A program made the translations under genes and the position numbers. Positions 39,173 to 53,991 of a stretch of 57,641 nt of DNA are shown piece by piece. Each line of letters begins with the position of its first letter. Within the stretch, counting starts at the first letter, position 1. Source of the DNA: Methylomonas sp. (GTDB lineage Bacteria > Pseudomonadota > Gammaproteobacteria > Methylococcales > Methylomonadaceae); the NCBI GenBank assembly GCA_002929135.1, contig PESC01000016.1:1-57641 (forward strand), written 5' to 3'. The notes beneath the pieces were generated by a model, which was not told where the DNA came from, made no database searches, and was given only the letters and a program-made list of their open reading frames with translations.

Positions 39173-41436
39173 TCCACAACGCTCCGCACATTTTCAGCCA
39201 CAAAAAATACTGGGCGCATCGCTTCGGCCCGGCAGGGGAACTGCCGATGAGCCAGGACGCCATGCACCGGCTGGGCTGGGATGCCTGCGACATCATTCTG
39301 GTAACCGGCGATGCCTACGTCGACCACCCCAGCTTCGGCATGGCGGTAATAGGCCGGGTACTGGAAGCGCAAGGTTTTCGGGTGGGCATCATCTCGCAAC
39401 CCGACTGGCACAGCGCCGACGATTTCCGTCGGCTGGGTCAGCCGACGCTGTTCTTCGGCGTGACCGGCGGCAACATGGATTCCATGGTCAACCGCTACAC
39501 CTCCGACAAAAAAATCCGCTCCAACGATGCCTACACCCCAGGCGGCGAGGCAGGCAAGCGCCCGGATCGGGCAGTGAACGTTTATGCCCACCGCTGCCGC
39601 GAAGCCTACAAGAATGTAGCCATCATCATCGGCGGCATCGAAGCCAGCTTGCGTCGCATTGCGCATTACGATTACTGGTCGGACACGGTGCGCAAGTCGA
39701 TTCTGCTGGATTCAAAAGCCGATTTGCTGGTGTATGGCAACGCCGAACGGCAGATCGTCGAAATTGCCCATCGCCTGGCCAAAGGTGAAAGCATTCACGA
39801 TTTGAAAGGCATACGCGGCACCGTGCATTTCGTCAAACAGGTACCACAGGGCTGGATCGAAAAAGACTCGACCGACATCGACAAGCCGGGCGGGGTGATC
39901 TTGCATCAGAATCCGTATCAGGACATGCCGAGTTGCAACTCCAGTCCTCACCCTAGCCCTCTCCCAGAGGGAGAGGGGGCTAAAAAACCCTCTCCCTTCG
40001 GGGAGAGCGAAGCGAGGGGGGCGAAGCCGCAGGGTGAGGGAATGTTACTGCGCACGCTGGCGGCAACGGCAACCACCACCGCCGCGATTAGTTTGGCTGC
40101 GACTCGTGAGCAAGTCATCCACTTCAAACCCATCGCCAACCAGAATCGTGCACAAACCGTCATCCGCCTGCCGGATTACGATGCGGTGAAAAACGATCCC
40201 GTCCTGTACGCCCATGCCTCGCGCGTCATGCACGGCGAAACCAACCCCGGCAACGCCCGCGCCCTGATCCAGCGCCACGATAAGCGTGAGGTGTGGATCA
40301 ATCCGCCGCCGCTGCCGCTGACCACCCAGGAAATGGACGGTGTGTTCGAGCTGCCTTATTCCCGCCTGCCGCACAGCGGTTACGGCAAGGCCAACATCCC
40401 GGCCTTCGAGATGATTCAGCACTCGGTGCTGATCATGCGCGGCTGTTTCGGCGGATGCAGCTTTTGCTCGATCACCGAACACGAAGGCCGCATCATTCAA
40501 AATCGTTCGGAAGATTCCATCATCCGTGAGATCGAAGCCATTCGCGACACCTCGCCCAGTTTCACCGGCCACATTTCCGACCTGGGCGGCCCGACCGCCA
40601 ACATGTGGCGACTGGCGTGCAAAGACCCGGCCATCGAAGCCGCCTGCCGCAAGCCGTCTTGCGTCTACCCCGGCATCTGCCACAACCTGGACACCGACCA
40701 GACGCCACTCATCAAACTCTACCGCCGCGCCCGCGCCCTGCCCGGCATCAAGAAGATTTTCATCGCCTCTGGCCTGCGCTACGACATCGCCGTCGAAACC
40801 CCGGCTTACGTCAAGGAACTGGTGACCCACCACGTCGGCGGCTATCTGAAAATCGCCCCGGAGCACACAGAGCTTGGCCCGCTGTCGAAAATGATGAAAC
40901 CCGGCATGGGCAGCTACGACCGCTTCAAGGCCATGTTCGACAAGTATTCCAAAGAAGCAGGCAAGGAGCAGTATCTGATCCCCTACTTCATCGCGGCCCA
41001 CCCTGGCACCACCGACCACGACATGCTCAATCTGGCGCTATGGCTGAAACGCCATGGCTTCCGCGCCGACCAGGTGCAGGCGTTTCTGCCGTCACCGATG
41101 GCCATCGCCACCGCGATGTACCATTCCGGCAAGGACACGCTGCACAAAGTCAGCCGTAACGCGCCCGACATCGCCATTCCGCGCAGCGTGAAACAACGCA
41201 GGCTGCACAAAGCCTTTTTGCGCTACCACGACCCGAAAAACTGGCCCTTGCTGCGCGAGGCCTTGAAACAAATGGGCCGCGCCGACCTGATCGGTAACGG
41301 CAAACACCATCTGATACCCAGCTTTCAGCCAAGAATCGGCGACACGCCGCCGCAAGCTGGCAAACCGGCAAAACAAGCCTTCGCCACTAAACACACTGGC
41401 GATACGTTTAGAGGCTCGAAAGGCCGACGCCGCTGA
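39169..41436 (+). CDS. ygiQ: YgiQ family radical SAM protein
   Basis: A 755-residue radical SAM enzyme. The N-terminal YgiQ domain begins [22 protein letters not shown]; the cluster motif is [18 protein letters not shown] near residue 425 (CxxxCxxC), with [14 protein letters not shown] after it. The C-terminal DUF3362-type region ([23 protein letters not shown]) is complete. The family's reaction is not established. Start GTG 39169 overlaps the previous stop. Residues about 260-291 are not YgiQ: they are an in-frame translation of a REP hairpin ([12 protein letters not shown] ... GEG). The rest of the protein stays in frame. Confidence 0.9.
39946..40039. repeat. REP hairpin element inserted in frame in ygiQ
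   Basis: CCTCACCCT (39946-39954) pairs with AGGGTGAGG (40031-40039) and encloses two more hairpins: CCCTCTCCC/GGGAGAGGG (39957-39977), and CTCTCCC-TTCG-GGGAGAG (39990-40007) with a UUCG tetraloop. The core equals the CCCTCTCCC family at 19181, 41489 and 52868. It is translated as part of YgiQ. Confidence 0.9.
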
Positions 41437-50760: not shown

Positions 50761-51390
50761 TTAGAACAGCCAGGGGGCACGTTGGGCGCGTTCGGCTTCG
50801 TAAGCCTTGATTTTATCGGCGTGTTGCAGAGTCAGGCCGATGTCGTCCAGACCATTCAGCAAACGATGACGACGGGTTTCATCGACGTTAAAGGCAATGT
50901 TTTGTCCGCCAGGCGTGGTAATGGTCTGCGTACTCAGGTCTATCGTCAGTTGGTAGCCGTCATCGAGTTCCTTGAATAACTGATCGACGGTTGCCGCAGG
51001 CAACACGATGGGCAAAATGCCGTTCTTGAAGCAGTTGTTGAAGAAAATATCGGCAAAGCTCGGCGCGATGATGGCGCGGAAGCCGTAATCCTCCAGTGCC
51101 CATGGCGCGTGTTCACGCGACGAACCGCAGCCGAAATTTTCACGGGTCAGCAGAATCTGTGCTCCTTGGTATTGCGGTCGATTCAGCACGAAATCTTTGT
51201 TCAGGGGGCGATGGCTGCAATCCATGTCGGGTTCGCCATGATCGAGATAACGCCATTCGTCGAACAAATACGGGCCGAAACCGGCGCGGCGGATCGATTT
51301 CAAAAATTGCTTGGGGATGATGGCATCGGTATCGATATTGGCTCGATCCAGTGGGGCGACCAAGGCGGTCAACGTGGTAAAGGCTCTCAT
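50761..51390 (-). CDS. leuD: 3-isopropylmalate dehydratase small subunit LeuD
   Basis: A 209-residue swivel-domain subunit that, with LeuC, isomerises 2- to 3-isopropylmalate. [17 protein letters not shown] and [19 protein letters not shown] are the family signatures. Start ATG 51390 overlaps the leuC stop (ATGA), giving coupled translation and a 1:1 ratio. Confidence 0.96.
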
Positions 51391-52796
51391 GCAGCGTCCT
51401 CCGCGACATTGACAAAGTGGCCTGCAATGGCCGCAGCAGCAGCCATTGCAGGACTGACCAGATGGGTACGGCCACCGTAACCCTGGCGACCTTCGAAATT
51501 GCGGTTCGAGGTCGATGCACAGTGTTCACCCGCCTCCAGTCGGTCGGCATTCATCGCCAGACACATCGAACAACCCGGTTCGCGCCATTCGAAATCGGCG
51601 TCGGTGAATATTTTGTCCAGACCTTCGGCCTCGGCTTGCTGTTTGATAAGCCCGGAACCGGGAACCACCAACACCTGTTTGACGGATGCCGCTTTTTTAC
51701 GGCCTTTGATCGTCGCTGCCGCCGCGCGCAAATCCTCGATGCGCGAGTTGGTGCACGAGCCAATGAAAACCTTGTCGAGTTTGATATCGGTGATTTTCTG
51801 ACCAGCGTCGAGACCCATGTATTGCAACGCGCGTTCGATGCCTTGCCGCCTGACCGGATCGGCTTCCTGGGCAGGATCGGGAATGCGGGCATCGACCGGC
51901 AACACCATTTCCGGCGATGTACCCCAGCTAACCTGCGGCTTGATGCTGGCGGCATCGATTTCGATGACCTTGTCGAACCGGGCATCCGCATCCGAGTGCA
52001 GTTTTTGCCAGCAGCGGACGGCCAGGTGCCAGTCGTCGCCTTTGGGTGAATACGGGCGATCACGGTAGAAGTCGATGGTCACGTCATCGCAGGCAATCAA
52101 ACCAGCGCGGGCACCGGCTTCGATAGCCATGTTGCAGATGGTCATCCGGCCTTCCATGCTCAGTGCGCGTATGGCGTCGCCGCCGAATTCGATGGTGTAG
52201 CCGGTGCCGCCGGCGGTGCCGATCTGGCCGATGATGGCCAGAATGATGTCTTTTGCGGTGACGCCGGGGCCGGTTTTGCCATTGACGCCAATCAACATGT
52301 TTTTGGCTTTTTTCTGCACCAGACACTGGGTTGCCAAGGCATGTTCGACTTCTGAAGTGCCTATGCCGAAAGCCAGCGCGGCGGATGCGCCATGGGTCGA
52401 GGTATGCGAGTCACCGCAGACCACGGTCATGCCGGGCAGAGTGGCACCCTGCTCGGGGCCGACGACGTGGACGATGCCTTGACGAATGTCGCTCATGTGA
52501 AATTCGGTGATGCCGAATTCCTTGCAGTTGCTGCCCAGGGTTTCGACTTGCAAACGCGACACCGGATCGGCGATGCCTTGGGCGCGGTCGGTGGTGGGGA
52601 TGTTGTGATCGGCAACCGCCAGATTGCGTGCCACCCGCCAGGGCTGACGGCCCGACAGGCGCAAGCCTTCGAAAGCTTGCGGCGAGGTGACTTCGTGCAG
52701 CAGTTGGCGATCGATGTAAATCAGGCACGAGCCGTCGTCTTCAGTGTGGACGACGTGATCGTCCCAGAGTTTGTCGTATAAGGTTTTACCTGCCAT
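51387..52796 (-). CDS. leuC: 3-isopropylmalate dehydratase large subunit LeuC
   Basis: A 469-residue aconitase-like subunit. [10 protein letters not shown] is the family signature; the 4Fe-4S cysteines lie in [16 protein letters not shown] and [13 protein letters not shown] start at ATG 52796 ([16 protein letters not shown]), preceded by GAGAGAAG; the longer in-frame start lacks family resemblance and runs toward a mobile repeat 37 bases upstream. The operon is leuC-leuD-asd, with leuB and leuA absent from this site. Confidence 0.95.
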
Positions 52797-52832
52797 GTTG
52801 CTTCTCTCTCGTAGGCCACGCATCGCGTAGCT

Positions 52833-52937
52833 GATTGAATGTAACCGTTCAGCCCCCACCTTAAATCCCCTCTCCCTGTGGGAGAGGGCTAGGGTGAGGG
52901 CACAAAATAGACGGGGGCTGAACGGTTACGATTGAAT
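52833..52937. mobile_element. 89-bp MITE with perfect 17-bp ends and 8-bp target duplication
   Basis: GTAACCGTTCAGCCCCC (52841-52857) and its exact reverse complement (52913-52929) bound the element. GATTGAAT occurs immediately outside both ends (52833-52840 and 52930-52937). The core is a CCCTCTCCC-TGT-GGGAGAGGG hairpin (52868-52888) of the same REP family as in ygiQ. A GTAA-beginning terminal repeat with an 8-bp duplication is the IS66 family pattern. It encodes no protein and sits in the leuC leader, after adk. Confidence 0.85.
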
Positions 52938-52983
52938 TGGGTATTTGTCGGTCGGGACGGTACGCCGTGCGTGCCCGGCGTTG

Positions 52984-53991
<1,008 letters not shown>

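Follow-up and report, generated by a model that had tools for sequence, protein, structure and literature searches.

Between two genes on the minus strand of the window (the whole stretch of 57,641 nucleotides that was analysed), which we take from their translations to be adk and leuC, lies a short element with all the hallmarks of a bacterial MITE (Table 1). On the minus strand, the order is adk, element, leuC. Read directly, positions 52833-52937 consist of GATTGAAT, GTAACCGTTCAGCCCCC, a 55-base interior, GGGGGCTGAACGGTTAC, and GATTGAAT again, as had been claimed in an earlier sequence-only reading, which described an 89-bp MITE with perfect 17-bp ends and an 8-bp duplication. A window-wide scan confirmed this description: an exact 10-base inverted repeat spanning up to 400 bp and flanked by an exact 8-base duplication is found at one place in the window, while the same test yielded none in 100 first-order Markov simulations of DNA. 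Likewise, the 17-mer end, with up to 3 mismatches allowed, occurs at two sites in the window, both of which are the ends of the MITE (shuffle mean 0.14). At 89 bp, the element is too short for any gene and is hence non-coding. Together with its inverted terminal repeats and duplication, it has dispersed copies, and the corresponding site in relatives is without it. Accordingly, 52841-52929 is a genuine MITE that belongs to the sphere of IS66/ISBst12. What makes it interesting is the triplex motif that it carries as cargo, together with a hint that such cargo recurs.

Table 1. Features of the window at and around the element
Feature	Position	Strand	Basis
leuC, downstream neighbour (presumed)	51387..52796	-	name from translation
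Left target-site duplication, GATTGAAT	52833..52840		direct reading; no second exact pair of this type elsewhere in the window
Complete 89-bp MITE with ends of the IS66-family ISBst12 group	52841..52929		end comparison with IS elements; genome copies
Left terminal inverted repeat, 17 bp, GTAACCGTTCAGCCCCC	52841..52857	+	direct reading
G/C-rich intrastrand triplex motif: pyrimidine block CCCTCTCCC, purine block GGGAGAGGG, third block GGGTGAGGG	52868..52901	+	motif finder; E. coli match
Right terminal inverted repeat, 17 bp, GGGGGCTGAACGGTTAC, perfect complement of the left	52913..52929	-	direct reading
Right target-site duplication, GATTGAAT	52930..52937		direct reading
adk, upstream neighbour (presumed); ORF listed from TTG, true start may be internal	52984..53673	-	name from translation

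The leuC ATG (CAT on the plus strand, 52794-52796) is separated by 36 bases from the nearer duplication and by 44 from the element itself, which corrects the 37 bp previously given for the distance between insertion and ATG. The adk stop lies 46 bases past the far duplication. Immediately 5' of the leuC ATG is the purine-rich GAGAGAAGC, which falls outside the insertion. As RNA, the element is predicted to fold into a single long hairpin (-54.4 kcal/mol, z -6.9). Neither a consensus promoter nor an intrinsic terminator was found between 52700 and 53100, a result that says little, since shuffles lead one to expect just 0.3-0.4 of them. An effect of the MITE upon leuC is possible but unsupported, because other palindromes are retained at this place in many relatives. 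The leuC frame also remains open upstream (52797-52859, minus strand) as far as an in-frame GTG within the MITE, which would correspond to a possible 21-residue N-terminal extension. Nothing suggests that this GTG is used as the leuC start, and ORF callers may misplace the start on account of it.

An 801-base region around the site matched 36 of the 37 genomes of the genus, Methylomonas, including the host's own, and 30 loci were fetched (the host and 29 relatives). By alignment, the element is absent from the adk-leuC gap in all 29 relatives examined, whose gaps range from 12 to 110 bases. One outcome that was to speak against a MITE, namely the same sequence occupying the gap of relatives with no duplication boundary, thus did not occur. 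Identity of leuC between these relatives and the window is about 80 to 87% (a DNA divergence of about 13-20%), and there is consequently no exact empty site among them. The gap has a further peculiarity, as GTAGGGTACGC/GCGTACCCTAC palindromes were noticed by eye in about 16 of the 29 relatives (loci L196-L224), and degraded palindromes of the GTAGGGTACGC type flank the MITE in the window as well (52797-52832 and 52938-52983). They recall the GTAG-tagged REPs described in the accessible part of PMC3733652, a resemblance that serves as a lead only.

When the element was compared by BLAST with its own genome (2.57 Mb in 63 contigs, a draft that is 95.86% complete), 49 matches were obtained, among which the window copy and six others can be aligned end to end, giving seven copies. 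The 17-bp ends are shared by other copies in this genome, and the second outcome that was to speak against the MITE, the lack of any such copies, did not occur either. Exact 8/8 duplications flank four of the seven: GATTGAAT in the window, GAACCATT on contig C6, AACAAAAC on C11 and ACAACAAC on C36, the last of which carries less weight, since it sits within a CAA run. As for the other three, the duplication matches at 6 of 8 positions in the copy at C2:10139, is shifted and imperfect in the C24 copy, and is unrecognisable in the copy at C2:105521. The window copy is nearest to the majority consensus of the seven, from which it departs at one base. This makes it the least decayed copy, a ranking that gives no date.

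The core had been taken for a REP hairpin. That label is imprecise: the core is a triplex motif already on record, and nothing was found that ties the CCCTCTCCC core to REPs of the RAYT type. The motif finder recognised the window copy and none of 100 shuffles, and 32 of the 34 core bases are identical to motif no. 1 of E. coli (Table 1 of PMC4666352, available in part). According to the accessible text of Holder et al. 2015 (PMC4666352), a pyrimidine block in such a motif is accompanied by its complement and by a mirror-like third block; the E. coli motif forms a stable triplex in vitro, while formation in vivo was not supported. In the same portion, the authors describe the E. coli copies as unassociated with transposons, phages or plasmids, and they found no transposase or integrase remnants nearby. 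Elsewhere in the window, at 39946-40009, two triplex-motif repeats lie close together with no transposon ends. Among plasmids, 339 of 72,556 records matched the element query, none of them covering 80% or more of the element, and therefore repeats of the core type do occur on plasmids, which stands against the lack of a plasmid association described for E. coli. At such repeats in the two plasmid stretches inspected, no MITE ends were found (best 9-10 of 16). On the Methylomonas koyamae plasmid pFW12EY (64108-64154; L359), a triplex-motif repeat overlaps the annotated 3' end of cas1f and extends into the cas1f-cas3f gap of the plasmid's type I-F CRISPR-Cas locus.

A matching transposase came from within the genus. 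The GTAACCGTTCANNCCC pattern occurs six times in the same-genus genome G022, in one case directly behind an IS66 transposase of 543 aa, which matches PF03050 (E 5.2e-42) and NF033517 (216.5 bits, cut-off 180). The element concerned is about 1.75 kb long and filled by this single ORF, and its ends, GTAACCGTTCAGACCCC, are identical to those of the window MITE at 16 of 17 positions. Its flank, GAAGGATA, stands at the left end on contig C27 and at the right end on contig C42, the 8-bp duplication being thus read across two unlinked contigs. Of 301 genomes searched in the order, 41 contain relatives of this transposase (E<=1e-20). A scan of 50 transposase loci, in which ends starting with GTA, GTG, ATA or GCA were admitted, yielded ten distinct elements of 1.4-1.7 kb with GTAA ends, in which 12 or more of 16 end positions match and the duplication is 8/8. 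One of the ten, in a Thermoleophilia MAG (L301), carries the window's 17 bases at both ends (17/17), and its transposase frame is interrupted. The question of an IS66 with the same ends, which the sequence-only reading had put forward as a check, was in this way answered twice, by G022 with nearly the same ends and by this distant MAG with identical ones. Within the group, ISDge4 of Deinococcus geothermalis, which its authors assign to the single-ORF ISBst12 group, has been observed to transpose and possesses the ends GTGACTACTCAGCA and GTAACTGCTCAGCA as well as an 8-bp duplication (PMC12898284, from the portion available). The window element therefore has what is expected of an ISBst12 derivative: ends in common with an autonomous-type member, an 8-bp duplication, and a single-ORF partner.

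No ISBst12-type transposase matched in the host's draft at E<=1, whereas the same query found matches in 41 genomes of the order; this absence is not certain at 95.86% completeness. No autonomous copy was found in the host genome either, where IS66 is represented by one fragment. The mobiliser of a MITE does not have to be retained. With no transposase of the matching type detected in its host's draft, the window MITE is probably stranded and immobile at present.

Two other movers deserve consideration. Instead of a member of the ISBst12 group, the mobiliser could have been one of the larger IS66 elements of the genus, with several ORFs, as GTAA ends and 8-bp duplications are common to both IS66 types and IS66 transposase matches are present in 25 of the 37 genomes of the genus. 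However, in the 12 of 29 loci at which an end pair was recovered by a scan admitting ends that start with GTA or GTG, the larger copies (2.4-2.5 kb, known by their ends and not by their number of ORFs) begin GTAAGC or GTATGC, unlike GTAACCGTTCAG, and it is instead the single-ORF element of G022 that matches the MITE ends at 16 of 17 positions. With their ends differing in this manner, the larger copies were rejected, and we regard such a mobiliser as very unlikely. The claim that an IS66 element mobilised the MITE accordingly holds and narrows to the single-ORF ISBst12 group, on the strength of the G022 element, the ten GTAA-ended elements and ISDge4. Still less credible, and in our judgement highly improbable, is an ordinary hairpin of the REP/BIME type moved by a RAYT (Y1 transposase), with the ends and the duplication being incidental. 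The core is, to be sure, a palindromic repeat with many solitary copies. However, Y1_Tnp (PF01797) has no match at E<=0.001 in the host draft, whereas 5 of 14 control genomes do match, and RAYT as the mover was rejected on this account; exact 8-bp duplications, moreover, recur among both copies and taxa. Target duplication is not known from insertions of the RAYT type.

A different question concerns the direction of traffic between motif and MITE. Conceivably, the solitary triplex motifs are what remains of decayed MITEs and the spread of the motif is itself a product of IS66, for which there is a precedent in the truncation of MITEs to REP-like remnants described for QMITE2 in the accessible part of a review (PMC10969869). 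Individual loci could be read in this manner. For example, the left flank of one host copy (L017, G000:C18:17899) resembles a degraded MITE end (score 16; right 8) and may be a relic, and among ten core-matching stretches of a Sedimenticola MAG, three keep an end and represent truncated or rearranged MITEs, six have none, and one (L354), in which GTAACC..TCA..CCC adjoins the core, is ambiguous. Another non-MITE match of the host (L040) reaches 16 on one side. Against this, the solitary copies as a whole carry end matches near the control level. Under a strict rule, which called for GGTGAG no more than 25 bases after the core and for 200 bases of flank, the 38 solitary copies in relatives averaged 7.4 and 7.6 of 14 at their two sides (control 7.1 and 7.5), and the 11 solitary copies of the host averaged 7.3 and 8.0 by hand (control 7.2 and 7.4). 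A looser, gapped recheck dispensed with the GGTGAG rule and tolerated 3 mismatches; 50 copies in relatives then scored 10.1/10.0 (control 9.8/10.1), and of the 26 host matches, five of which are MITE copies (L001-L005), those outside the MITEs had means slightly above the control. A relic origin of the solitary cores was therefore rejected, with two possible exceptions, and we consider it improbable that MITE decay accounts for the motif's spread. Because the solitary copies show end remnants at about the control level, the motif probably existed first and was captured by the MITE between its ends; on this evidence, solitary motifs do not stem mainly from the MITE. The proposal that the core moves as MITE cargo is thus borne out within the seven-copy family, while the solitary copies give no clear sign of MITE origin.

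Elements of this general construction are not confined to the host. A scan of genome contigs with GTAACCGTTCAGCCCC, a pattern that demanded CCCC beside the end, gave at least 116 loci, and 24 of the 116 loci listed yielded 25 elements shorter than 400 bp in which the end has a partner and the 8-bp duplication is exact; repeating the count at six shifted registers gave zero each time. L169, L159 and L144 were left outside this 8/8 count. The other 92 listed loci contain no such pair under the rule, and some are surely chance matches. The sources named for such elements include Omnitrophica, Magnetococcales, Methylomonas, other Methylococcaceae and Sedimenticola. In a separate survey, a joint query of five elements returned between at least 42 and at least 74 matches per genome (E<=1e-4; partial matches and cross-matches included, 40 candidates scored per genome) in the five genomes concerned, which belong to Methylumidiphilus (L144), a Methylococcaceae MAG (L133), Methylomonas sp. 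355-202 (L131), Sedimenticola (L136) and Omnitrophica (L109). G022 likewise has a MITE on contig C28 (L257, about 1405-1516) whose ends are of this kind and whose duplication is GAAAAGAG; its core is unrelated and fails the triplex rule.

When the cores were grouped, first by eye and then by clustering, nine families were obtained, making ten with that of the window. Representatives of five of the ten contain a triplex motif (the window, L084/L139, L131/L116, L163/L190 and L177, the score of L116 resting on about 14 bases of flank), whereas five fail the rule: L109/L191 from Omnitrophica, L133/L144 from Methylococcaceae, L126 from Magnetococcales, L170/L188 and L136/L182. The background rate of the rule is 0 to 6 of 100 for shuffled cores and 19 of 3000 for random 100-base segments from the same loci. 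This enrichment is a lead, not proof, because the rule, which uses 9-base blocks, was written after the elements had been seen, C-rich ends favour G/C-rich neighbours, the search pattern demanded CCCC, the families number just ten, and of the window's own family of seven copies, two of the five scored pass the rule in its strict form. It is tentatively possible, if on balance doubtful, that ISBst12-group MITEs recurrently carry triplex motifs across bacterial lineages, that they capture the motif again and again because its structure aids their formation or movement, and that they constitute a real route of motif spread. If so, motifs whose spread is unexplained would travel between sites and genomes on miniature elements of the ISBst12 group. 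The combination of a motif within a MITE and a matching IS in the same genus makes both the spread of the motif and any aid to its carrier testable, and GTAACCGTTCAG ends with 8-bp duplications define a concrete class of MITE to annotate.

For the window element, the most coherent history is that of a non-autonomous MITE with ISBst12-type ends, which was moved in trans, had captured a motif that was then copied along with it, and is now probably immobile, and we hold this to be very probably correct. The ends, the duplications, the copies, the absence from the 29 relatives, and the IS elements with matching ends are all direct observations. From these, we infer that a G/C-rich intrastrand triplex motif would have been captured between IS66-type ends and then copied together with them, presumably giving rise to the seven end-to-end copies. 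An ISBst12-group transposase acting in trans would have inserted the MITE between adk and leuC, putatively duplicating 8 bp of the target, after the lineage had split from the 29 relatives examined.

How does this element compare with known systems? Like other bacterial MITEs, such as MITEPsy1 (PMC3189936), Chunjie and QMITE2 (both PMC10969869) and MITEAba12, it is short and non-coding, has terminal repeats and a target duplication, and exists in several copies. MITEPsy1 differs in having a 4-bp duplication and in being tied to an IS5-type element (PMC3189936), and as far as the accessible portions of PMC3189936 and PMC10969869 describe them, MITEPsy1, Chunjie and QMITE2 have neither IS66 ends nor a core with a triplex motif. 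Among the literature matches listed, most of them judged by their entries, none was recognised as describing an IS66 MITE whose core is a triplex motif; the available parts of PMC3281130 and PMC9769881 name IS66 elements and no IS66 MITE. With REP elements and their RAYTs (PMC2817692, PMC3733652), it has in common a short palindromic repeat in many copies, although the host draft has no RAYT domain match and nothing found marks the core as a RAYT substrate. The ISBst12 group, exemplified by ISDge4 (PMC12898284, available in part), provides a closer parallel through its GTAACNNNTCAGC-type end and 8-bp duplication, and the MITE's autonomous relative in G022 also has one transposase ORF; the window element differs in being 89 bp long and gene-free. 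The core itself finds its nearest counterpart in TMECO (earlier PIT), whose no. 1 it matches almost base for base and whose solitary copies are similarly common. Yet the E. coli copies, according to the available part of PMC4666352, stand outside any transposon context, whereas the motif in the window lies between transposon ends flanked by a target duplication.
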